Shown: positions 51,542 to 64,000 of the stretch, in pieces
Position numbering within the stretch: the stretch's first letter is position 1
How the letters are laid out: each line of letters opens with the position of its first letter
Assembly (NCBI RefSeq): GCF_002020355.1
Contig: NZ_MPZV01000002.1
Span: forward strand, 248,001 to 312,000
Length of the DNA: 64,000 bases
Source: Thioclava sediminum
GTDB lineage: Bacteria > Pseudomonadota > Alphaproteobacteria > Rhodobacterales > Rhodobacteraceae
Reading direction: 5' to 3'
The notes under the pieces: generated by a model
The model's database searches: none
The model's input: the letters and a program-made list of their open reading frames with translations, nothing else
What the model was told of the DNA's origin: nothing
Made by a program: the position numbers and the translations under genes

Positions 51542-53806
51542 TCAGTCTCTTTCCGACTGCGCCGCAGCAATCACCGCCTGCCCCAGCGCCAGCGAGCCGT
51601 CATTCGCCGGCAGCGTGCGATGGCTCAGCACGGGCAGATCGCCCAGCGCCGCGCAGGTCAGCCGATGCAACAGCGCGTTCTGATACACGCCACCGGTCAG
51701 CGCCACGGCTTTCGCCTCTCCGCTTTCGATCAGCGACCGCACCCGGCGGGCAAAGCCCTGCGCCAGCGCCGCATGGAACCGTAGCGCGATGCTCTCGGGC
51801 GCGACCTCGGCAGAAAGATCGGCGGCGAGCGCCTGAAAAAACGGTCCGGTCTCGAGCACGTCGCCCGCATCCGCGAACGCATAGGTCCCGGCCTCCGCCG
51901 ACTCCCCGTGTGCCAACGCGTGCGCCGCCAGGGCCTCGAGCCGCATCGCGGCCTCCCCCTCATAGCTCTGCCGCATCGGGCAAATCCCGAGGCAGGCCGC
52001 CACCGCATCGAAGAGCCGTCCCGCCGACGACGACAGCGGCGCGTTGATCCCCTTCGCCGCCGCCTGACGCGCCAGATCGCGTGAGGCTTCGGGGAACAGA
52101 CTGTCGGCGAGCCCCTCCAGCCCAGCCGCATCGAGCCGCACCAGCGCGTTGCGCCACGGCTCTGCTTGCGCCCGGTCGCCACCGATCAGCGGCGCGGGCT
52201 CAAGCCAGCCGCGCCGCGCGAACCCAAGGTAATCGCCCAGCAGCAGTTCGCCGCCCCAGACCGTGCCATCGGGCCCCAAGCCGAGCCCATCGAGCACGAT
52301 CCCCGCGACCTTGCCGCCCTCCAGCGGCCAACCGTTCTCGGCCATACAGGCCGCGAGATGCGCATGGTGATGCTGCACCTCAACCAGCCGCAACCCGTCG
52401 CGCGCGGCCCGTTCGGCCCCGTGGCGCGAGGCCCGAAAATCGGGATGCAGATCGACCGCCACGACGTCGGGGCGATGATCGAACAGCGCCGCATAATCCG
52501 CATCGGCCTGCTCGAACGCCTCCCATGTCAGCGCCTCGTCCAGCTCGCCCAGATGATGGCCCAGCAGCGCCTGCCCGTTCTTGATCAGGCAGATCGCGGC
52601 CTTCATCTGCCCGCCATAGCCCACCACCTGCGGCGCGCCCTCGAACCCGTCGGGCAGCGGCAAGGTGCCCGGCACCTGCCCCCGCGCGCAGCGCAGCACC
52701 ATCGGCGGATCGGCCCGCACGACGCTGTCATCGAGCCGCCGCGCAATGTCGCGGTCATGCATCAGGAAGGCATCGACGAAGCCAGCCAGCTTCTCGCGCG
52801 CCTCACCGTTGCCGATCACCTGCGGCTCGCCCGAGAGATTGCCCGAAGTCATCACCACGGGCCACCCCTCTTCCCCCCGCGCCCATTCGCGCAGCAACAG
52901 ATGATGGAGCGGCGTATAGGGCAGCATCCAGCCGAGACTGTCCTGCCCCGGCGCCACCGCCTCCGGCAAAGCCTCCCCCGCCTTTTGCAGCAACACGATC
53001 GGCGCCGCAGGATCGCGCAGCAATTCCGCCTCCGCTTCCGAAACTTGGGCATAGCGGCGGATGGTCTCGATCTCACCCATCAGCGCGAAGGGCTTGGCGG
53101 GCCTGCGCTTGCGCGCCCGCAACAGCGCGACCGCCTCGGCATTGCTCGCGTCGCAGGCGAGATGAAACCCGCCTAAGCCTTTCACCGCGACGATGCCCCC
53201 GCCCTGCAAAACCGCTCCGACCTCTTCGGCAGGGCGCTCTTTCCCGTCCATCTCCAGCCACACCCGCGGCCCGCAATCGGGACAGGCGATCGGCTGCGCG
53301 TGAAAACGTCGATCCGCCGGGTTCTCATATTCCGCCCGGCAAGCCGAGCACATCTCGAAGGGCGCCATCGTCGTCTGCGCCCGGTCATAGGGCAGCGCGT
53401 GCAGGATCGTGAAACGCGGCCCGCAATGGGTGCAGTTGGTAAAGGCGTAGTGCCGCCTGCGCCCGTCGCCCCGGATTTCCGCAAGACAGTCCGGGCAGGT
53501 CGCCGCATCCGGCGTCACACGCGTCTCGGCCCCCGCCCCTTGCGAGGCCACGATCGCGAAACCCTCAGGCGCGGTGTCGAACACAAACTCCGACACCTCC
53601 ACCGCATCGACCCGCGCAAGCGGCGGTGCCTCATCCGAGATCGCCTCGGCCAAACCGTCCAGCGCCCCCGCCACCCGGATCAGCACCCCCTCGGGATCGT
53701 TGAGCACATGGCCCGCAAGCCCGCGCTCCTGCGCAAGCCGCCAGATGAAGGGGCGGAAACCCACCCCCTGCACCTGCCCGCGCACCCTGATCTCGAAACC
53801 CTGCAT
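51542..53806 (-). CDS. hypF: Carbamoyltransferase HypF
   Basis: A 754-aa enzyme that converts carbamoyl phosphate to a carbamoyl group on HypE for the cyanide ligands. Domains in order: acylphosphatase (about 1-90, GQVQGVGFRPFIWRLA), two zinc fingers (CPDCLAEI, CTHCGPRF, CSACRAEY, CPDCGPRVW), YrdC-like (VKGLGGFHLACDA), and Kae1-like (VQHHHAHLAACMAENGW, VALTGGVYQN). The start is at 53806, right after the dispersed repeat, which provides AAGAGGAAG. Confidence 0.96.
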   Translation of the reverse strand: MQGFEIRVRGQVQGVGFRPFIWRLAQERGLAGHVLNDPEGVLIRVAGALDGLAEAISDEAPPLARVDAVEVSEFVFDTAPEGFAIVASQGAGAETRVTPDAATCPDCLAEIRGDGRRRHYAFTNCTHCGPRFTILHALPYDRAQTTMAPFEMCSACRAEYENPADRRFHAQPIACPDCGPRVWLEMDGKERPAEEVGAVLQGGGIVAVKGLGGFHLACDASNAEAVALLRARKRRPAKPFALMGEIETIRRYAQVSEAEAELLRDPAAPIVLLQKAGEALPEAVAPGQDSLGWMLPYTPLHHLLLREWARGEEGWPVVMTSGNLSGEPQVIGNGEAREKLAGFVDAFLMHDRDIARRLDDSVVRADPPMVLRCARGQVPGTLPLPDGFEGAPQVVGYGGQMKAAICLIKNGQALLGHHLGELDEALTWEAFEQADADYAALFDHRPDVVAVDLHPDFRASRHGAERAARDGLRLVEVQHHHAHLAACMAENGWPLEGGKVAGIVLDGLGLGPDGTVWGGELLLGDYLGFARRGWLEPAPLIGGDRAQAEPWRNALVRLDAAGLEGLADSLFPEASRDLARQAAAKGINAPLSSSAGRLFDAVAACLGICPMRQSYEGEAAMRLEALAAHALAHGESAEAGTYAFADAGDVLETGPFFQALAADLSAEVAPESIALRFHAALAQGFARRVRSLIESGEAKAVALTGGVYQNALLHRLTCAALGDLPVLSHRTLPANDGSLALGQAVIAAAQSERD

Positions 53807-53853
53807 CTTCCTCTTGGCTCAAATATCCCGGGGGTTTGGGGGCAGAGCCCCAA
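53807..53853 (-). repeat. Dispersed intergenic repeat between hupV and hypF, copy 3
   Basis: On the minus strand it reads GGGGCTCTGCCCCC, AAACCCCCGGGATATTTG and then AGCCAAGAGGAAG, ending at the hypF ATG. The purine-rich end serves as the hypF Shine-Dalgarno. It shares two blocks with the hypD-hypE copy. Confidence 0.65.
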
Positions 53854-53858
53854 CTTAC

Positions 53859-55286
53859 TCAATGCACCGTGCAGACCATGCAGGGATCGAAGCTGCGCAC
53901 GATATGCTGCACCGAGACCGGCGTGGTCTCGCCCGCGCCGACCGGCGCACCGACCAGCGCGGCCTCCAGCGGGCCCGGCACACCCTCCGCGTCGCGCGGG
54001 CTGAAATTCCACGTCGTGGGCGCGATGATCTGATACGACGCGATGCGCCCGTCCTCGATGCGCAGCCAATGGCCCAGCGCGCCCCGCGCGGCCTCGACCA
54101 ACCCCGCGCCCTGCCCTGCCTCGGGCAGATCGCCTTGCACCATGAACGCAGCAGCCGGATCGATCCCTTTCGCAAGCCCCTCCATGAAGGCTTGCGTCCG
54201 CGCCAGTTCCAACAGCCGCCCCGCAACCCGCGCCAGAACGCCGCCGCCCGCCAGCGCACGCGCCAGCGGATGGCCGTCCACGACCTGCCGCGCGAGCGCG
54301 CCGGTCTCCACCGTCTGCCCGTTCAGCCGCGGCGCCTTGCACCAGCTATAGGCGGCCTCGCGCATCGCCTCGTCGGGCCGTGTCTCACCCTGCCAGGGAT
54401 GGGCCTGCGCCCCCAGCATCCACGCATGGCTGAGGTCTTCCGTGATCGCGCCGAAATCGACCGCGCCCAAGGCCCCGTCCCACAGCCCGCGCCCAAAGCC
54501 GAACCCTTCGGCCAGCGGATAGCCTCCGAAGCTCATATACCGGCCCGAGCCACGCCCCAACTGGTCCAGATCCAGATCGGCCGCGATGCGCAGGAACAGC
54601 CCCGTATCGCCCGTCTCCCACGCCATAAGCTGATCGACGGTCTCGATCGCACAGAACGCCTCCAGCGACCCGCCGAAAACCACCTCCTCCAGATAGCGGC
54701 GGAAAGCGCGCAACGTCGTCTCGATGCGCACCTTGTCGCGCGGTCCGGGCGCGCGCGTGACGCCGCCCGGCTGGATTGCGAGCGTATGGGGCCATTTGCC
54801 CGCCATCAGCCCGAGGATATGCATCAACTCGGCACGCGCCGCGACCGCCGCGCGCTGCGCGCCGCCCTCGGCGGGGGTGAAGCGCGCCACCGCCCGGTCG
54901 AACCACGGCCTGTCCGCATACACGGGCCGGATAAAATCGGGCATGAAGAACAGGTTGAAATGAAACAGGTGGTCCGAGACATTCTCGACCGCATGGATCA
55001 GCGCCGCCATCGCAGCCCCCTGCGGCGTGGGCTCCAGCCCCATGGCCGCGCCCAGCGCGCGCGCCGCCGCCGCCGACTGGCTGATCGAGCAGATGCCGCA
55101 GATCCGCGGCGTGATCGTCAGCGCATCGCGCGGGTCTTTGCCTTCCAGCATCCGTTCGAACCCGCGATAGAGCGGCGAGTTCACGCGGGCCTCAGCCACC
55201 GCCCCATCGGCGAGGTCGAGATGCACTTCCAGATCGCCCTCGACCCGGTTGAACGGGCCCACGACGAGGCGCGGCGTCTCTGTCAT
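53859..55286 (-). CDS. hupV: Regulatory (H2-sensing) hydrogenase large subunit HupV
   Basis: A 475-aa sensor hydrogenase subunit (HoxC/HupV). The NiFe ligands are C63 and C66 in RICGICSISQ and C469 and C472 in DPCMVCTVH. The protein ends at that His, with no tail for endopeptidase removal, the hallmark of regulatory hydrogenases. It is cytosolic. The start at 55286 overlaps hupU by 4 bp. Confidence 0.96.
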   Translation of the reverse strand: MTETPRLVVGPFNRVEGDLEVHLDLADGAVAEARVNSPLYRGFERMLEGKDPRDALTITPRICGICSISQSAAAARALGAAMGLEPTPQGAAMAALIHAVENVSDHLFHFNLFFMPDFIRPVYADRPWFDRAVARFTPAEGGAQRAAVAARAELMHILGLMAGKWPHTLAIQPGGVTRAPGPRDKVRIETTLRAFRRYLEEVVFGGSLEAFCAIETVDQLMAWETGDTGLFLRIAADLDLDQLGRGSGRYMSFGGYPLAEGFGFGRGLWDGALGAVDFGAITEDLSHAWMLGAQAHPWQGETRPDEAMREAAYSWCKAPRLNGQTVETGALARQVVDGHPLARALAGGGVLARVAGRLLELARTQAFMEGLAKGIDPAAAFMVQGDLPEAGQGAGLVEAARGALGHWLRIEDGRIASYQIIAPTTWNFSPRDAEGVPGPLEAALVGAPVGAGETTPVSVQHIVRSFDPCMVCTVH

Positions 55287-56281
55287 CTGCGTCCTTTCGG
55301 CTTGCGGATCGTCGGCGTCACCTCGACCCGGTCGGCAACCGCGTTCTTCGCGATCCGCTCGGGCGTGGCCGCCTTTGACAGCGAGGCGAGCGCCATGAAC
55401 CACGCTTTGGGCATATCGGTCGGAAGGCCCACCGGGATGCCCGCGATCTTCGGCGTCTCGGTAAAGGAATGGCGTGGTTCCTCGAATTCGGGCGCGGTGC
55501 AGTTGATGCAGGGGTATCCGCCCGAGGTGCACGACCCGTCACCGTTCCACGGCCGGATATTGCAATCGCCCACGGCCTGCGTGCCGATGCAGCCCAAGTT
55601 CTCCATCATGCAGCCGATATCGGATAGCTCCACCGCCGAGGCCTTGTATTCGTAGAACTCGTTTTTCGAGCAGCCGTGATGGACGAGATGCTTGGCGTAG
55701 AACAAAGGCCGCCCGAAAGCGTCGAGGTCTTCCGCCCCCAGCGCGCCTTCATTGAGCAGCAAAAGCGTCTCGGTCACCCAGTCGGGATGGGTCGGGCAGC
55801 CCGCCACGTTAATCACCGGCAGCCCCGAGCCGGAGCGGAACTCCACCGGCAGCGCGCCGCCCGGCAGCGCCCCATCATATTGCACGCCGACCGCATCGGA
55901 GGGGTTGCCGCCCGCCGAGGTCACGCCGCCATAGGTCGCGCAGGTGCCCACCGCGACGACATGGCGAGCTTTCGGCGCGAGGCTCACCACCCAGTCGAGC
56001 ATCGAGCGCCCGGTGCCGGACACCATCTGGAACTTGCCCGTCCCACGCGGCCCGCGCGCGATGGAGCCCTCGACGGCCAGCACGTCCAGCGCGATCTCGC
56101 CGCTCTCGACCGCCTCGAAAATCGCACGCACCTCCGCCCCGGTCTCGAGGCTGACGGTCGGGTGCCAGAGGAACTCGATCCCCGCGCCGCCCAGCGTGTC
56201 GAAGACATTCGGGGATTCCGCGCAAAGGAGCGACATAGTGCAGCCGCCGCAGCCTGCCGCTTGCAGCCAGAGAACCTTCAT
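55283..56281 (-). CDS. hupU: Regulatory (H2-sensing) hydrogenase small subunit HupU
   Basis: A 332-aa Fe-S subunit of the H2 sensor. It begins [19 protein letters not shown], with no Tat signal, so it stays in the cytoplasm. Cluster ligands appear in [42 protein letters not shown] and [10 protein letters not shown] basic C-terminal tail (RKPKGRR) is present. It forms HupUV and signals to HupT, whose gene is overlapped by 4 bp. Confidence 0.96.
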
Positions 56282-57669
56282 TCCGCCCCCTCGCCCAGTT
56301 CCAGATCGAAGGAGAAACAGGCCCCGCCCAGCGCCGACCCTTTCGGGCAGAGCCGCAGACGCCCGCCATGTTCCTCGATGATCTTATGGCTGATCGCGAG
56401 GCCCAGACCCGTGCCCGCACCAACCGCCTTGGTGGTGAAGAACGGATCGAAGATCGCCTGCGTCAGCTCTTCGGTCACGCCGGGGCCATTGTCGCCAACC
56501 GACAGCGTCCCGCGCCCCTCCATCACGCGCGCGTCGACTTCGATCCGGCCAGTGCCCTCTTCAAGCCCCGAGAGCGCATCGATGGCGTTTTGCACGAGGT
56601 TCATCACGACCTGCTGGATATGTCCCTGCCGACCGCGCACCTGCAGCGTCTCCGCGCCGGTGAAGGCGATCTCGACCCCGGCCTTGGAGCCGCGCTGCAC
56701 CCAGTTCGCCGCCACCCGCGCGGTCTCGACCAGATCGAAGACGACCATCTCGCCCGAGCCTTCGGCACTCAGCCGCCGCAGATCTTCGACGATGTCGCGC
56801 ACCCGTTCGGCCCCGTCGCGCGCGCCCTCGATGGCCGAGCGCAGGTTGCGGATTTCACGGTCGAGCTTCAGCTCCTCGCGCAGGGCGATCAGTGCCTCTC
56901 GATCCGCTCCGGCCTGCACTTTCTCGAAATAGGCCTCGAACTTGCCCGCATAGCGCTCCAGCGCATGGGTATTCGCGTAGACGAAGGAAATCGGGTTGTT
57001 CAGCTCATGCGCGACGCCAGCGAGAAGACGGCCCAGCGAGGCCAGCTTCTCGTTGCGCACCAGCTGCGCCTGCGTCGATTTCAGTTCTTCGTGGCTCTGC
57101 TCCAGCTCGGAATAGGCCTGGCGCAATTCGCCCAAGGGCCGCCCGGTCAGCACGTAGCCCGCGATGCGGGAGCGTTCGTCCATACGCGGGCTGATCGACA
57201 ATTCCAGCGGCGCGGGCCCTTCCGGCCCGCTCAGCGCCGCTTCGATCGTCACCGGCTTGCGGGTATTCGCAGCCTCCGCCAGCCCGCGATCCAAGGCCTC
57301 GACCGAGCGCGCGTCGAACATGCCTGCGAGCTTGCGTCCGTGCCAAGCGCCGGGCGGCTCGCCAGTCAGGCTTGCGACCGAGGCCGAGGTTTCCAGCACC
57401 TCGCCCGAGCGCGAAATCACGATCAGCGCATCCGAAACCGAGGCGAGGATCGACCCGAGGAAAGAGCGCAGGTCTTCCAGCTCGTGGTTCTGCTGCTCCA
57501 GCCGCTCCTGATAGTCCACCAGATCGGCATAGGTCCGGTCGACCGCCGAGAGCACATCGAACCAGACGTCTTCGCCCTCCCCCTCGTCCGCGCCCGGCGC
57601 GTGGCGCAACAGCCCGGCCAAGGTCGGGTCCAAGGGGTGCTGGCTATCGGGTGCGGACTCGCGCGACAT
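56278..57669 (-). CDS. hupT: Sensor histidine kinase HupT
   Basis: A 463-aa soluble kinase. An N-terminal coiled region (about 45-70) is followed by a PAS domain (about 70-180, [20 protein letters not shown]) that contacts HupUV, then a second coiled coil. The H-box is LLAGVAH221ELNNPISF. The catalytic ATPase domain has [20 protein letters not shown] and [13 protein letters not shown]. It phosphorylates HupR when H2 is absent. It is the first gene of the hup cluster. The start at 57669 has a weak GAGAG site. Confidence 0.94.
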
Positions 57670-57926
57670 GACACTCTCAAAGCCGGGCGCAACGGGCGCC
57701 CATCCCTTATCGCTAGCCCATTCGCGGCGCTCAGTCCATGATCTCGGGCCCCGTACCGAAGGGCGCATTTCGTGTCAAAAGACGCGCCATACCCCAAGAT
57801 GACCTTCCGTCAGCCCGCGCCTCGCCCTCTTGGCAAGGGCGCGCGCTTTGCCAAAACTACAGCGCGAGCGCAAACAGGCGGGTGACTTGGCGCGTCCGGC
57901 GCGGCAGGAACCCGAGGGAGGACAAG

Positions 57927-59345: not shown

Positions 59346-60265
59346 CGCTCGCCCGAATCCGGCAGCACGACGACGATGGTCTTGCCCGCGTTCTCCGGTT
59401 CGCGCGCGAGGCGCAGGGCCGCAGCCGCAGCCGCGCCGCAGGAAATCCCGGCGAGGATACCCTCTTCGCGCGCCAACCGCCGGGCGATCTCGATCGCCTC
59501 GTCATTGCTGACCTGCTCGATCCGGTCCACCAGATCCATGTCGAGCACCTCCGGCACGAAGCCCGCCCCGATGCCCTGGATCTTGTGCGGGCCGGGCTGG
59601 AGCGCCTCGCCCGCGCGCAATTGCGTGAGAACCGGGCTCGCCTCGGGCTCTACTGCGACCGAGATCACCGGCAGGCCCTTTTCCTTTTTCAGATAGCGCG
59701 AGACACCAGTGATCGTGCCACCCGTGCCGACGCCCGCGACGAAGATATCGACCACGCCATCGGTATCCTCGAAGATTTCCGGCCCCGTGGTCTTCTCGTG
59801 AATCTCGGGGTTCGCGGGGTTGTTGAACTGCTGCAGCAGCACGTAGCGATCGGGATCGGAGGCCGCGATCTCCTCGGCCTTGGCGATCGCCCCCTTCATG
59901 CCCTGCGCGCCTTCGGTCAGCACGAGCTTCGCGCCAAAAGCCAGCAGCAGCTTGCGCCGTTCGATGCTCATCGTGTCGGGCATGGTCAGCGTGATCGGGA
60001 TGCCGCGCGAGGCGGCGACGAAGGCCAGCGCGATCCCGGTATTGCCCGAGGTCGGCTCGACGATCTCCTTGCCGGGACCGAGCACGCCGCGTTCCTCCGC
60101 ATCCCAGATCATGTTCGCACCGACGCGGCACTTCACCGACCACGCCGGGTTGCGCCCCTCGACCTTGGCCAGAACGGTCGCGCCCGCGCCCTCGGTCATG
60201 CGGTTGAGCCGCACCAGCGGCGTGTTTCCGATGCTGAGCGAATTGTCTTCGTAAATACGTGCCAT
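59300..60265 (-). CDS. cysK: Cysteine synthase A (O-acetylserine sulfhydrylase) CysK
   Basis: A 321-aa PLP enzyme making cysteine from O-acetylserine and sulfide. The PLP lysine is in [14 protein letters not shown]. Other motifs are [34 protein letters not shown] and [17 protein letters not shown]. It functions downstream of cysD-cysNC, although it is 36 kb away. It overlaps the convergent serine hydrolase at its 3' end. Confidence 0.96.
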
Positions 60266-60404
60266 GCGCGCGCTCCCTTCCTGTCGTTTGCCGCGCCATC
60301 AAAGAGCAACACGCGCGGAAGGGAAAGACGAAAGCTTCGCATCGCTGCGAGGCTTCCACTTCTTTACCGGGCAACTGGCAGCACCCGGAGCTTTCCGAAC
60401 GCCG

Positions 60405-60578
60405 TTACGAGAAAGCCAAATCCGGCGGACAGTACGAGCCCTGTCCGTCATAATCGTCATCCTTGTGTCCGCGACCGCGGCCGCCATGCGTCAGATCTTC
60501 GAGAGACCCCAAATGTTTCAATTTGGGCCGCTCATACCGGATGGCGTCATTTTTGCTTCGAGAATTCTCAATCACCAC
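60405..60578 (-). CDS. Putative RiPP precursor with a lasso-peptide-type leader
   Basis: A 57-residue ORF. The leader has the lasso pattern YxxPxLxxxGx5T as Y15ERP18KL20KHLG24SLEDLT30. The predicted core after His31 starts GGRGRGHKD, where Gly1 could form a 9-member ring with Asp9, and continues DDYDGQGSYCPPDLAFS. The GTG at 60578 has GGGGG 5 nt upstream; a GTG at 60590 is also open. No lasso protease, PqqD-like or cyclase gene lies in the window. It is downstream of glycosyltransferase genes on the same strand. Confidence 0.55.
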   Translation of the reverse strand: MVIENSRSKNDAIRYERPKLKHLGSLEDLTHGGRGRGHKDDDYDGQGSYCPPDLAFS

Positions 60579-60590
60579 ATATACCCCCAC

Positions 60591-60856
60591 GTTTGATTGA
60601 ATATAGAAAGGGTTACACAGCTCTGACGAACCGCTAGCGGTTTTTGCGGCGATTCAATCCGCGGTTGCGTGCGCATTAAAAAGTCACCCGAAAATGCTTA
60701 AAAAACGCGCATTTACGGGCTGGATTCCTGAATTTAACGAAATTGCGAGCGGCGGTGGCTGGCCGAAAACCTCGGTGCAAGACACGAGGGAATCGCCTGA
60801 CCGCCAGCTATTCGCGGCGAAACGTCCTGTTTTCATACACTTAATGCGTGTAAATT
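60591..60856. other. Intergenic region with a 14-bp palindrome
   Basis: 266 bp with AT-rich stretches and no gene that I trust. AACCGCTAGCGGTT (60629-60642) is a perfect palindrome followed by TTT on the plus strand. On the minus strand it lies 50-65 bp upstream of the RiPP-like ORF, with a TATATT element between, so it could be part of its promoter. Confidence 0.4.
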
Positions 60857-61816
60857 TCAGCTCCGCACTCTCGGCAGAGTAGCATCTACGGAGGAATGAG
60901 CGCGGCCGACAAAGCGTACGGCATTCCGCTTCAAGACCGCCTTTGGCTCGAAATTCCCCGGCACGCCATTCGCCGCAATCCCCGCCTTCTGGAGCGCCTC
61001 GATTCGTGCCGAACGCGGTATCCGCAGAACCTCGCCAGCCAGAAATGCGTCCTTCGCCTCTGGCGAGGTTCGGCCCCAGATCGCCCGTTGAAGCCGCGTG
61101 ATTGACGCCTTGAGATCAAGCTCGCGACGCAGCCACCCCTTGTCGAGGCCCAGATTGCGAGTGGTCGATGTCTCGTTTTCCGCCCACGCGGCCAGTCGTT
61201 CCCGGCTGACATAGACAGGTTCGGAGATCAGGGCCGTGCGCAGATATTCCTCCAGCGTCGGGATCGTATCGACCTTCACCGCCAGACTGCCCTTCATATT
61301 TCGCGACCAAAACAGAGCACCGTTCGACACGCCGATCGACCCGAAGATCGCCAGATGGACCTCTTCGGGCGTGTAGGTGCGCTCGTCATAGACATCATCG
61401 AAAATGCCCTTGTCGCCGAGACGGGCGTTGGGCGTCCGGCTTTCGTGCTCGATGACCTGGCTCAGCATGCAGAGATTCACCCCCTGCTGAGTGCAAATCT
61501 CGTGGCCTCGTGCAAGGTAATCAGGGAAGACCTGGTTATCGTCTTCCAGCATGCAGAAGTAATCGGCCTTGTAGGGGTTCTCCTTGAGAAAGCAGTCATC
61601 GAGATTGCGCGTCATGAATTTCTGCGGGCGGTTCTGCACGTAGTGAACCCGCGGGTCGCCAATCTCTTCGACCATCGCGCGACCGCTCGCATCGGGGCAG
61701 TCGTCGCGCACTTCACAGACCCAGTCCTCGAAGGTCTGCGCCTGAAGCGTGCCTATGGCACGCCGCAACAGGTCGGGGCGCCGATAGGTCGGCATTCGCA
61801 CGAGCGCTAACGGCAT
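60857..61816 (-). CDS. Family 2 (GT-A) glycosyltransferase
   Basis: A 319-aa GT2-type enzyme. The nucleotide-binding start is LVRMPTYRRPDLLRRAIGTL followed by VCEVRDDCPDASG. The DxD-like metal site is CMLEDDNQVFPDYL. The C-terminal 120 residues are less conserved and rich in basic residues. It is probably cytosolic and acts in surface polysaccharide or glycan synthesis together with the next genes. Donor and acceptor are unknown. Confidence 0.82.
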   Translation of the reverse strand: MPLALVRMPTYRRPDLLRRAIGTLQAQTFEDWVCEVRDDCPDASGRAMVEEIGDPRVHYVQNRPQKFMTRNLDDCFLKENPYKADYFCMLEDDNQVFPDYLARGHEICTQQGVNLCMLSQVIEHESRTPNARLGDKGIFDDVYDERTYTPEEVHLAIFGSIGVSNGALFWSRNMKGSLAVKVDTIPTLEEYLRTALISEPVYVSRERLAAWAENETSTTRNLGLDKGWLRRELDLKASITRLQRAIWGRTSPEAKDAFLAGEVLRIPRSARIEALQKAGIAANGVPGNFEPKAVLKRNAVRFVGRAHSSVDATLPRVRS

Positions 61817-61883: not shown

Positions 61884-62891
61884 TCACGCGATCCTCTCAA
61901 ACAAGTCCAGAAAGCGCCGAGCGCCGCGCTCCAGGGAAAGCTCATCGAGGATGTATTCGCGCGGCTGATACTCCGGCAGCCGCGCCCAGAATTCCTCGAA
62001 CCGGTCTTCCATATTCGCACGCGTCCAACGCAGCCCGCATCGATCGTCAAAATAAGGAACTGCAGAGACTTCGAGGCCCTCGGGGACAAACTTGGCTCCG
62101 AGCGGATCGACGAGTTCGCCCTCGTCCCACGCGAAAACCGGAACGCCGGAAGACATCGCCTCTTGATAAGCGAGGCCTTGGGTTTCGTGCTCGGTCACGA
62201 AGATCAACGCCCGCCCCTTGGCCAAGGCGCTGCGATACTCTGCCAACTCGTGCTCGCCATATTTTAGCTCGACTGAACTCAGGCCGCGGCGTTCGAGCAT
62301 GGCCCGCAGCGGCTGCATCGTATCTGCCTCGCGCGCGGCGTGGTTCCAGCGGATCTTGTTGTAGATAACGCAGTCGATCTGCTTGCGGTTCTCAGCGAGA
62401 AGCGGCCAGCGGTCCGTATCGATCCCGACGAACATCGGCGCCATTTTCGCGGCGACCTGAGGCGTATAAAGCCGGATCGGCCATTCCGACGGCTGCGTCA
62501 CGATCTGATAGTTCCGCTCGGCAAGCATCGCCTCGGCACGGTCCGGATAGGGTACCCAGCCGGGCCCGAACAGGGTCGGATTGGGCAGATCGACATCGCT
62601 CCAGACCGACTGATGACCGGCAATGGCGATCGGCCTGTCCGGTGACCGACGGGCGAGCGCGAAATCATTGATCCGAACGTCATACCCGTTTCGCCGCAGA
62701 CTTTCCGTCAGGTTCAGGAACGCCGTGAAGAACCCGGTATAGGGCTGCTTGCGCTTCAGCTTGCGGTAGCTGCGCCGCGCAACCCCGCGCAGCTGCGAAA
62801 GCTGGCGCCCCAGAGGCATTTCCCAGGCGCGCATCTCGTAACCGTCATAGAAGACGGGAATAACCTTGTTCGTGAAAGCTGCCCCAGCCAA
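61884..62891 (-). CDS. GT-B glycosyltransferase (family 1/4-like)
   Basis: A 335-aa protein with a C-terminal GT4-like donor-binding motif (TEHETQGLAYQEAMSSGVPVFAWDEGELVDP, the EX7E-type loop, in segments) and an N-terminal domain with NRRNGYDVRINDF-like features. The start is the TTG at 62891, preceded by GGAAGGTGGACG; no better start exists. It lies 67 bp upstream of the GT2 gene on the same strand, so the two form an operon. Confidence 0.78.
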   Translation of the reverse strand: MAGAAFTNKVIPVFYDGYEMRAWEMPLGRQLSQLRGVARRSYRKLKRKQPYTGFFTAFLNLTESLRRNGYDVRINDFALARRSPDRPIAIAGHQSVWSDVDLPNPTLFGPGWVPYPDRAEAMLAERNYQIVTQPSEWPIRLYTPQVAAKMAPMFVGIDTDRWPLLAENRKQIDCVIYNKIRWNHAAREADTMQPLRAMLERRGLSSVELKYGEHELAEYRSALAKGRALIFVTEHETQGLAYQEAMSSGVPVFAWDEGELVDPLGAKFVPEGLEVSAVPYFDDRCGLRWTRANMEDRFEEFWARLPEYQPREYILDELSLERGARRFLDLFERIA

Positions 62892-63473: not shown

Positions 63474-63581
63474 ATGACTCGAAGTGGGCCCGATGCGAAT
63501 GTCCCGCCCCTGCAGACTGACGGTCACGCGGACCATGTGCAGATCGGTGACTGCCACGCCGTTGATCGCGCGGCAGCGTGA
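63474..63581 (+). CDS. Possible small ORF coupled to a glycosyltransferase
   Basis: A 35-codon ORF (MTRSGPDANVPPLQTD...) with a strong Shine-Dalgarno (GGAGGAAG, 4 nt before the ATG). Its TGA overlaps an in-frame GTG of the next glycosyltransferase (GTGA). It could be a leader ORF that couples translation. No family recognised. Confidence 0.35.
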   Translation: MTRSGPDANVPPLQTDGHADHVQIGDCHAVDRAAA

Positions 63582-64000
63582 GCGCAGGGAAGACGGCTTT
63601 CAAGATGCGTTTGATCTACCTCGTTCATGACCTCGATGATGCCGCGATCTGGCGACGCGTTCAGATGTTGCGCGCTGGCGGCGCCGAGGTGACGCTTGCG
63701 GGGTTCCAACGCTCAGCGCGGCCACTACCGGAACCCGCGCTCATTCTCGGGCACACAGCGAATGGGAAAATGGCCCAGCGCGCGCTCTCGGTGCTCAAGG
63801 CCCTCCCCGGTCTCGCCAAGCGGTTCCCTACCCTCCAGGAGACCGATGTCATCATCGCTCGCAATCTCGAAATGCTCGCGCTCGGCGCGGTTCTCAAGCG
63901 ACGCGCACCGGCGGTACGTCTCGTCTACGAACTGCTCGACGTGCATCGCCTGTTGTCGGGGAACGGTCCGGCGTCCAAGGCAATCCGCGCCATTGAAGCG
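63578..64000 (+). CDS. Glycosyltransferase, N-terminal part (cut by window edge)
   Basis: An open frame running off the window. From the ATG at 63605 it reads MRLIYLVHDLDDAAIWRRVQ and MLRAGGAEVTLAGFQR, the N-terminal Rossmann pattern of GT-B (GT4-type) glycosyltransferases. DVIIARNLEMLALGAVL and VRLVYELLDVHRLL follow, typical of the family. The GTG at 63578 overlaps the preceding small ORF; the ATG at 63605 is the alternative. The catalytic C-terminal half is outside the window. Confidence 0.75.
   Translation, partial: MSAGKTAFKMRLIYLVHDLDDAAIWRRVQMLRAGGAEVTLAGFQRSARPLPEPALILGHTANGKMAQRALSVLKALPGLAKRFPTLQETDVIIARNLEMLALGAVLKRRAPAVRLVYELLDVHRLLSGNGPASKAIRAIEA

Follow-up and report, generated by a model that had tools for sequence, protein, structure and literature searches.

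A probable second lasso-type precursor, separately encoded, in Thioclava

The gene A2 of this Thioclava genome is best explained, taken as a whole, as a genuine second precursor of a kinase-type lasso peptide system that comes from a class of precursors encoded apart from the enzyme cluster, and this explanation is considered likely. Judging from the sequences, one enzyme set probably serves two precursor classes, both of which are probably phosphorylated at a C-terminal Ser. The window analyzed here is a stretch of 64,000 nucleotides, corresponding to positions 248001 to 312000 of contig C2 in an eight-contig genome (G000). A2 lies at positions 60405 to 60578 of this window on the minus strand and encodes a peptide of 56 to 57 amino acids (VVIENSRSKNDAIRYERPKLKHLGSLEDLTHGGRGRGHKDDDYDGQGSYCPPDLAFS). 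Its predicted leader (VVIENSRSKNDAIRYERPKLKHLGSLEDLTH, positions 60486 to 60578, minus strand) contains Y15, P18, L20, G24, and T30, which form the YxxPxLxxxGx5T pattern of class II lasso precursors, with the Thr at position −2. The cleavage site was placed by this T(−2) rule, with the predicted core (GGRGRGHKDDDYDGQGSYCPPDLAFS, positions 60408 to 60485, minus strand) starting at G32. The core opens with GGRGRGHKD, which includes an acidic residue in the 7-to-9 region typical of class II lasso rings (Asp9, present in all three Thioclava genomes with A2), and continues into an acidic tail with one Cys and a C-terminal Phe-Ser. The first-pass annotation had read the leader pattern, the start of the core, Asp9, and the acidic Cys-containing tail in the same way, and the translation agrees with it at every residue. 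All three Thioclava genomes that carry A2 (G000, G401, and G410) have an intact frame, and only five codons vary among them, which is too few for a test of selection. The start is probably a GTG at position 60575 or 60578, which lies 8 or 5 nucleotides downstream of GGGGG. A1, the ordinary precursor of the same genome, shares GGGGGTAT with A2, and the spacing from this element to the A1 ATG is 9 nucleotides. A2 does not lie inside an enzyme cluster, which is the usual, though not strict, location of a lasso precursor gene.

The enzyme cluster beyond the window

The precursor had been described as an orphan, and genome-wide searches indeed found no match to B1, B2, or a full-length Asn synthetase within the window. 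It looks like an orphan only because the window stops 5.5 kb short of a full cluster comprising B1, B2, the lasso cyclase, an HprK-like kinase, an ABC exporter, and A1, which extends from 5.5 to 11.2 kb past the window end in a polysaccharide locus. On contig C2, and on the same strand as A2, the genes are arranged as follows: the ABC exporter (317544 to 319367), the HprK-like kinase (319364 to 320350), the lasso cyclase (320347 to 322236; NF033535, E value of 1e-88 and 298 bits, below the cutoff of 525), B2 (322233 to 322679; above the NF033537 cutoff), the PqqD-like B1 (322681 to 322953), and A1 (323041 to 323175; MKTYTRPQLQKHGKLEDLTHGAGSTTIADQVLPPGTDIAGLTFS). A nucleotidyltransferase gene (323522 to 324628; PF14907) follows A1 on the opposite strand, and these genes, together with that of a Wzc protein, are all located within C2:314377-324628. 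A2 is separated from A1 by 14,463 bases and from the cyclase gene, the nearest maturation gene, by 11,769 bases. One of the earlier suggestions, that a distant enzyme set serves the precursor, gains support from the location of the cyclase, B2, and B1 genes elsewhere in the genome, on the same contig and strand, and the search recommended for these genes to the right of the window and genome-wide recovered a single cluster on C2, with the cyclase placed at 320413 to 321588, B2 at 322290 to 322610, and B1 at 322693 to 322890. The B1, B2, and cyclase expected of a class II lasso system are thus all encoded in this genome.

Genome-wide profile searches revealed one Transglut_core3 (B2-type) match and one PqqD match, both in the cluster. 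Of six Asn_synthase matches, the one that is full length (E value of 2e-43) is the lasso cyclase, and the remaining five span just positions 12 to 96 of 354. The kinase matches Hpr_kinase_C with 22.8 bits (cutoff, 33.3; E value of 7e-5) and TIGR04352 with 39.5 bits (cutoff, 200; E value of 3.5e-10). Residues H131, K148, and D169-D170 of the kinase are invariant among nine aligned sequences, and the SGGLDS motif of the cyclase, Cys77 and His111 of B2, and the DxD motif of the nucleotidyltransferase are invariant among 9 to 11 aligned sequences; we take these to be the likely key residues of the four enzymes. In the mapping made in this analysis, the kinase residues appear to fit the His-Lys-Asp-Asp set of lasso kinases described in PMC9266682. 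Both features of the paeninodin/pseudomycoidin type, namely, an HprK-like kinase with these residues and a precursor with a C-terminal Ser, are found in the Thioclava system. The nucleotidyltransferase beside A1, a candidate counterpart of PsmN, matches PF14907 with an E value of 2e-25.

Leader profiles and pattern searches

The A2-class leader fits NF033521 (lasso_leader_L3; lasso RiPP family leader peptide-containing protein), a model of 20 positions that covers the leader region only. In a scan of the genome with this model, A2 ranked first (16.6 bits) and A1 ranked second (16.4 bits); the scores of A2 across scans were 15.8 to 16.6, below the cutoff of 19. Seven of 14 genomes used as controls gave matches at E values up to 10, none of which was above the cutoff. 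Of three second precursors of Cereibacter that were scanned, two reached the cutoff (19.8 and 19.2), and the third scored 17.2. A leader-only profile gave two clear matches in G000, A1 and A2, at 44.0 and 41.2 bits, with the next best at 18.6 bits; since this profile includes both G000 sequences, the result shows only the absence of a third copy. Applied to 34 genomes, the profile, which was built from 16 of the leaders that it scored, gave at least 25 bits for real leaders and at most 18.6 bits for everything else, and no additional copies were detected.

A single-sequence search of 394 genomes matched 46 of them at E values up to 0.1, and the only precursors recognized among these 46 were from G000 (two), G221, G091, and G292. 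A loose regular expression applied to 30 loci from this search picked out the A2 locus itself, L020 (from G221), and L036, and the L036 frame was ruled out as a precursor by its residues. A pattern scan of contigs matched 16 stretches, three of which were confirmed, all as second precursors, in Cereibacter johrii JA192, Luteovulum (Cereibacter) azotoformans ka25, and Thioclava sp. JE_KL1. The C. johrii peptide is identical to that of G395, and its position agrees as well. Plasmid and phage collections gave no match.

Distribution of the two precursors

A precursor of this cluster type is present in 16 genomes, including five of Thioclava (G000, G400, G401, G402, and G410), four of Cereibacter (G051, G394, G395, and G397), and seven others (G018, G048, G091, G132, G147, G221, and G292). 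The Thioclava label of G000 and the Cereibacter label of G051 and G397 were inferred from shared genus labels, and two of the 16 genomes are incomplete (G147, 73%; G394, 83%). A separately encoded second precursor was found in 7 of the 16, namely, G000, G401, G410, and the four Cereibacter genomes. Among 16 Thioclava genomes, A2 is present in three of the five with A1 and in none of the 11 without it, and among five Cereibacter genomes, four carry both precursors and one carries neither. In a broader sample of 394 genomes from 393 genera, the second precursor occurs in two of nine genomes with the cluster type and in none of 385 without it (Fisher P value of 0.0005, uncorrected for relatedness). 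The precursor of G392 (E value of 1e-3, the tenth of 10 matching genomes), which begins with YVRPQLVVIGDMLDLTHAGTQGSCEALS, is of a different type and was excluded from these nine. At E values up to 0.01, no second precursor was found without the cluster in the 11 Thioclava genomes, the 1 Cereibacter genome, or the 385 genomes of the broader sample; the samples overlap in G000, G254, and G051. The second precursor is absent from 9 of the 16 cluster-type genomes, which indicates that it is not essential to the system.

Two classes of core peptide

When A2 is aligned with eight cluster-type precursors from its bacterial family, ten columns show no variation, namely, Y, P, L, G, E, and T in the leader, the core residues Gly1 and Asp9, and the terminal Phe-Ser. 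The cores otherwise fall into two classes. The 14 distinct ordinary cores all have Asp9, contain no Cys, and have 0 to 2 Arg, His, and Lys residues in total, and 13 of them are 24 residues long. All seven second cores have one Cys, with 4 to 7 Arg, His, and Lys residues and lengths of 24 to 32 residues, six of them differing from the usual 24. As far as its predicted cores show, the class represented by A2 in Thioclava and Cereibacter is one of one-Cys, Gly/Arg/His-rich cores of variable length. The terminal Ser is shared by all 21 listed precursor cores, and the terminal Phe-Ser is found in 7/7 second cores. The second core of G397 is GGRGRGHGHGWPHRRDDPCDYTFS, whose first seven residues are identical to those of A2, and that of G051 is GRGHGGFGGGWGWGGGRPHRPHDPCDYTFS. 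Asp9 is present in the three Thioclava second cores, whereas the four Cereibacter ones lack an acidic residue at positions 7 to 9, so a normal lasso ring is impossible there. The class seems to keep both ends needed by the enzymes, the leader and the terminal Phe-Ser, whereas the ring acceptor is present in only some members. The Gly1-Asp9 ring proposed in the first-pass annotation is accordingly possible for Thioclava A2 but does not extend to four of the seven second precursors.

Compared pairwise, the Cereibacter leaders differ by 2 to 8 synonymous and 0 to 3 nonsynonymous codons. The final nine codons show 0 to 2 synonymous differences and, in all six pairs, no nonsynonymous one, while the middle of the core varies in length. 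In the Cereibacter second precursors, the leader is thus largely kept while the core changes, the contrast that the first-pass annotation proposed to look for, and none of the three findings named beforehand as speaking against a lasso precursor, a loss of motif spacing, a disrupted frame, or a genome devoid of a cyclase, was encountered. The Cereibacter gene lies between the AnmK gene and the enolase gene in 4/4 loci, and in the three genomes with both precursors on one contig, the two are 65 kb, 0.92 Mb, and 1.0 Mb apart. The A2 leader shares 10 to 11 of 18 residues with the Cereibacter second precursors and 12 of 18 each with its own A1 and the G292 precursor, and the Cys is at position −8 in Thioclava A2 versus −6 in Cereibacter. 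The A2 leader being no nearer to those of Cereibacter, and the Cys being placed differently, the two genera may have reached similar cores independently.

A G+C-rich inverted repeat, which by eye resembles a terminator of its own, lies 3′ of each Cereibacter second precursor (L098, L099, L100, and L101). A lasso-leader ORF of G392 (YVRPQLVVIGDMLDLTHAGTQGSCEALSTTGKSCTTVVGGSTAKRK; L084, G392:C131:5710-5796) has two Cys residues and no terminal Phe-Ser, and the B2 gene of that genome is on another contig (C150); this ORF is possibly another separately encoded precursor, or possibly merely the product of a contig break. G132 has a second lasso B2 (L054, contig C114), upstream of which is a different precursor-like ORF with two Cys residues (YEAPTLTRFGTVVAMTAAGSGGVPEVRRFCNPNPPKNNKKSVVRC).

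The polysaccharide setting

The lasso genes occur with a Wzc-like protein, which carries Wzz and GNVR domains, and two or more glycosyltransferases from the set GT2b, GT2c, and GT4b in all 11 loci read far enough (G000, G401, G410, G400, G402, G051, G394, G397, G018, G221, and G292), three of which are near-identical Thioclava loci. The polysaccharide block is within about 2 kb of the lasso genes in ten loci and about 11 kb away in G402. The loci of G091 and G395 stop at a contig edge beside B2, on the side where the block is expected, and only the nucleotidyltransferase side is visible. At an E value of 1e-20, GT2c was detected in 47 of 394 genomes, made up of seven of the nine that have the cluster type and 40 of the 385 that lack it (Fisher P value of 7e-6). 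These counts rule out GT2c as exclusive to lasso genomes and indicate that the cassette prefers the polysaccharide block, which also exists without the cassette. The tie to a polysaccharide locus drawn in the first-pass annotation is hence real (11/11 loci), but it is a property of the whole cassette and does not define this precursor type. The idea of a new peptide type defined by its glycosyltransferase neighbors was rejected for A2, whose Cereibacter counterparts sit between AnmK and enolase.

A possible processing route and competing explanations

In the route proposed here, the leader motif of either precursor would be bound by B1, the sole PqqD-like protein found in the genome, and B2, aided by B1, would cleave after Thr-His, ahead of Gly1. 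By analogy with known lasso kinases, the HprK-like kinase would phosphorylate the C-terminal Ser of A1 and A2, after which the nucleotidyltransferase, and perhaps also the glycosyltransferases of the locus, would put a sugar on the phosphorylated Ser, and the ABC protein would export the product. A1 would be ringed at Asp9, and the cyclase may close a Gly1-Asp9 ring in Thioclava A2. Because such a ring is possible in A2 and one at positions 7 to 9 is impossible in Cereibacter, either A2 is a second lasso peptide or the whole class is linear, and these two readings are placed close together. That A2 is a second ordinary class II lasso peptide, with a Gly1-Asp9 ring and a threaded tail, whose gene has merely moved out of the cluster, has a chance just short of even: Asp9 is found in 3/3 Thioclava A2 sequences as in 14/14 ordinary cores, and the cyclase retains SGGLDS, but the four Cereibacter second precursors have no acidic residue to offer, and the Cys, the basic residues, and the unusual lengths of the second cores set them apart from the ordinary ones. 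A slightly lower probability is given to linear products, in which the second precursors, including A2, would lose the leader and be phosphorylated (and perhaps glycosylated) at the C-terminal Ser with no cyclization, as a functional parallel of the linear polyphosphorylated peptides (LPPs) of Bacilli achieved through lasso B1 and B2. This agrees with the lack of an acid at positions 7 to 9 in 4/7 second cores, the variable core length, the universal terminal Phe-Ser, and the last nine codons of the four Cereibacter sequences, which are free of nonsynonymous change. It also agrees with the description of LPPs, in PMC13381572, as linear analogs of phosphorylated lasso peptides located in capsule loci. 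Against it stand the retention of Asp9 in Thioclava A2, the dedicated SpI-type peptidase that LPPs use, and the phosphorylation of LPPs at Ser3 rather than at a C-terminal candidate Ser. More tentatively, one enzyme set may make two products, with the clustered precursor yielding an ordinary lasso peptide and the separate precursor yielding a non-lasso, one-Cys, Gly/His/Arg-rich phosphopeptide, for which the leader-binding, leader-cutting, kinase, and sugar-adding steps would be used and the ring skipped.

Two further explanations would deny A2 a role as a precursor. A decaying duplicate of A1, its frame kept by chance, is improbable; A2 does lie apart from the enzymes, the Thioclava changes are too few for a test of selection, and the second copy is missing from 9 of 16 cluster genomes, but A2 is intact in three Thioclava genomes, the four Cereibacter genes occupy one conserved AnmK-enolase site, and the Cereibacter leader and last codons have few amino acid changes while the core changes. 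The probability that the ORF is a chance reading frame is very small. Longer frames on the opposite strand overlap A2 (e.g., one of 110 amino acids at positions 60264 to 60596), and the NF033521 score is below the cutoff, but a six-frame search of the window gave a single YxxPxLxxxGx5T occurrence versus 0.005 on average over 200 dinucleotide shuffles, A2 is the best match in the genome to an independently made lasso-leader model, and it co-occurs with the cluster. Stricter leader patterns are not independent evidence, as they were drawn from an alignment that includes the A2 ORF. A chance ORF was rejected on the rank in the model scan, the gap in the leader-profile scores, and the rarity of the pattern.

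Comparison with known systems

According to PMC9266682, the paeninodin precursor is phosphorylated by its kinase at the C-terminal Ser, and PsmN of the pseudomycoidin system puts hexoses on the phosphorylated Ser, although a host glycosyltransferase was not excluded. The Thioclava system resembles these two (PsmK and PsmN in pseudomycoidin) in the lasso B2 and cyclase, the HprK-like kinase, and the C-terminal Ser, the residue that is modified in those systems (PMC9266682); its nucleotidyltransferase may correspond to that of pseudomycoidin, and its leader resembles the [Y/W]xxP motif recognized by a discrete B1 in kinase-type lasso systems (PMC13381572). Unlike in paeninodin and pseudomycoidin, A2 is 11.8 kb from the nearest maturation gene and is one of two precursors, the other an ordinary one, for a single enzyme set; its core is basic with one Cys, and its Cereibacter counterparts have no ring acceptor.

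Lasso clusters in capsule and polysaccharide loci, and LPPs with lasso-like leaders, have been published for Bacilli by Popov et al. in 2026 (PMC13381572). That paper describes LPP systems as having, like the present one, a YxxP leader, a kinase, an NTP transferase, an MsbA-like exporter, a capsule locus, and frequent coexistence with lasso clusters, but also, unlike A2, their own RRE, an SpI-type peptidase, and phosphorylation of Ser3 of the core. The A2 system differs from them in its single PqqD-like protein in the genome, the lasso-type T(−2), and the C-terminal candidate Ser. The LPP leader YxxPxVLxHQxIxFETxxS differs from that of A2, and only one PqqD-like match was found where LPPs have an RRE of their own, and both precursors would then depend on the single RRE protein. 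In Cereibacter sphaeroides, a lasso cluster was listed by antiSMASH or BAGEL4 (PMC11676352). The available portions of PMC8498205 and PMC13352647 make no mention of separately encoded precursors, and searches of the open-license literature turned up no report for this group of a second lasso precursor encoded apart from the cluster.

Mining for RiPPs usually seeks precursors that adjoin their enzymes. In the two genera described here, a second class of precursor is encoded as far as about 1 Mb from the cluster, with both presumed enzyme-read ends conserved and the middle freed. If the second-precursor explanation is true, lasso enzyme sets act on more substrates than can be seen in their clusters, and environmental bacteria such as Cereibacter and Thioclava would allow tests of the role played in polysaccharide loci by phosphorylated and glycosylated lasso peptides. 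Under the two-product reading, the lasso machinery would process and phospho-tag surface-polysaccharide peptides in general.

Flanking DNA of A2

A weak promoter-like site, TCGTCA-18-TATATT (9 of 12 consensus matches), lies ahead of A2 at positions 60600 to 60629 on the minus strand; its −10 part is identical in the three Thioclava genomes, and its −35 part is TCATCA in G401 and G410. It is touched by a perfect 14-bp palindrome upstream of A2 (AACCGCTAGCGGTT, positions 60629 to 60642), which is operator-like in form and identical in the three Thioclava genomes. With up to two mismatches, the palindrome has one match in the window versus 0.17 expected, and no further copy was found in the window or in L007. 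A hairpin that looks terminator-like by eye lies 3′ of A2 at positions 60332 to 60355 on the minus strand. It is not significant by shuffling (81-nucleotide stretch; z score, −1.2), and the terminator scan, in which one was found versus 0.9 expected, lists this hairpin on the plus strand only; its C-A mismatch in G000 is replaced by a C-G pair in G401 and G410. A2 adjoins a family 2 glycosyltransferase gene, GT2a (60857 to 61816, minus strand; PF00535), which is followed by the GT4-like GT4a (61884 to 62891, minus strand; Pfam matches below the cutoff) and by the start of GT4b (63578 to 64000, plus strand; Pfam match below the cutoff), which forms the near edge of the polysaccharide block extending toward the lasso cluster. 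In the loci read, GT4a was found in the three Thioclava loci with A2 only, and GT2a was found there and in one relative in G221 (43%, beside the cluster). Farther to the left, beyond a serine-hydrolase-like ORF and cysK, positions 51542 to 57768 of the window encode HypF, the large and small subunits of a nickel-iron hydrogenase, and a PAS-domain histidine kinase, which we take to be a hydrogen-sensing set.
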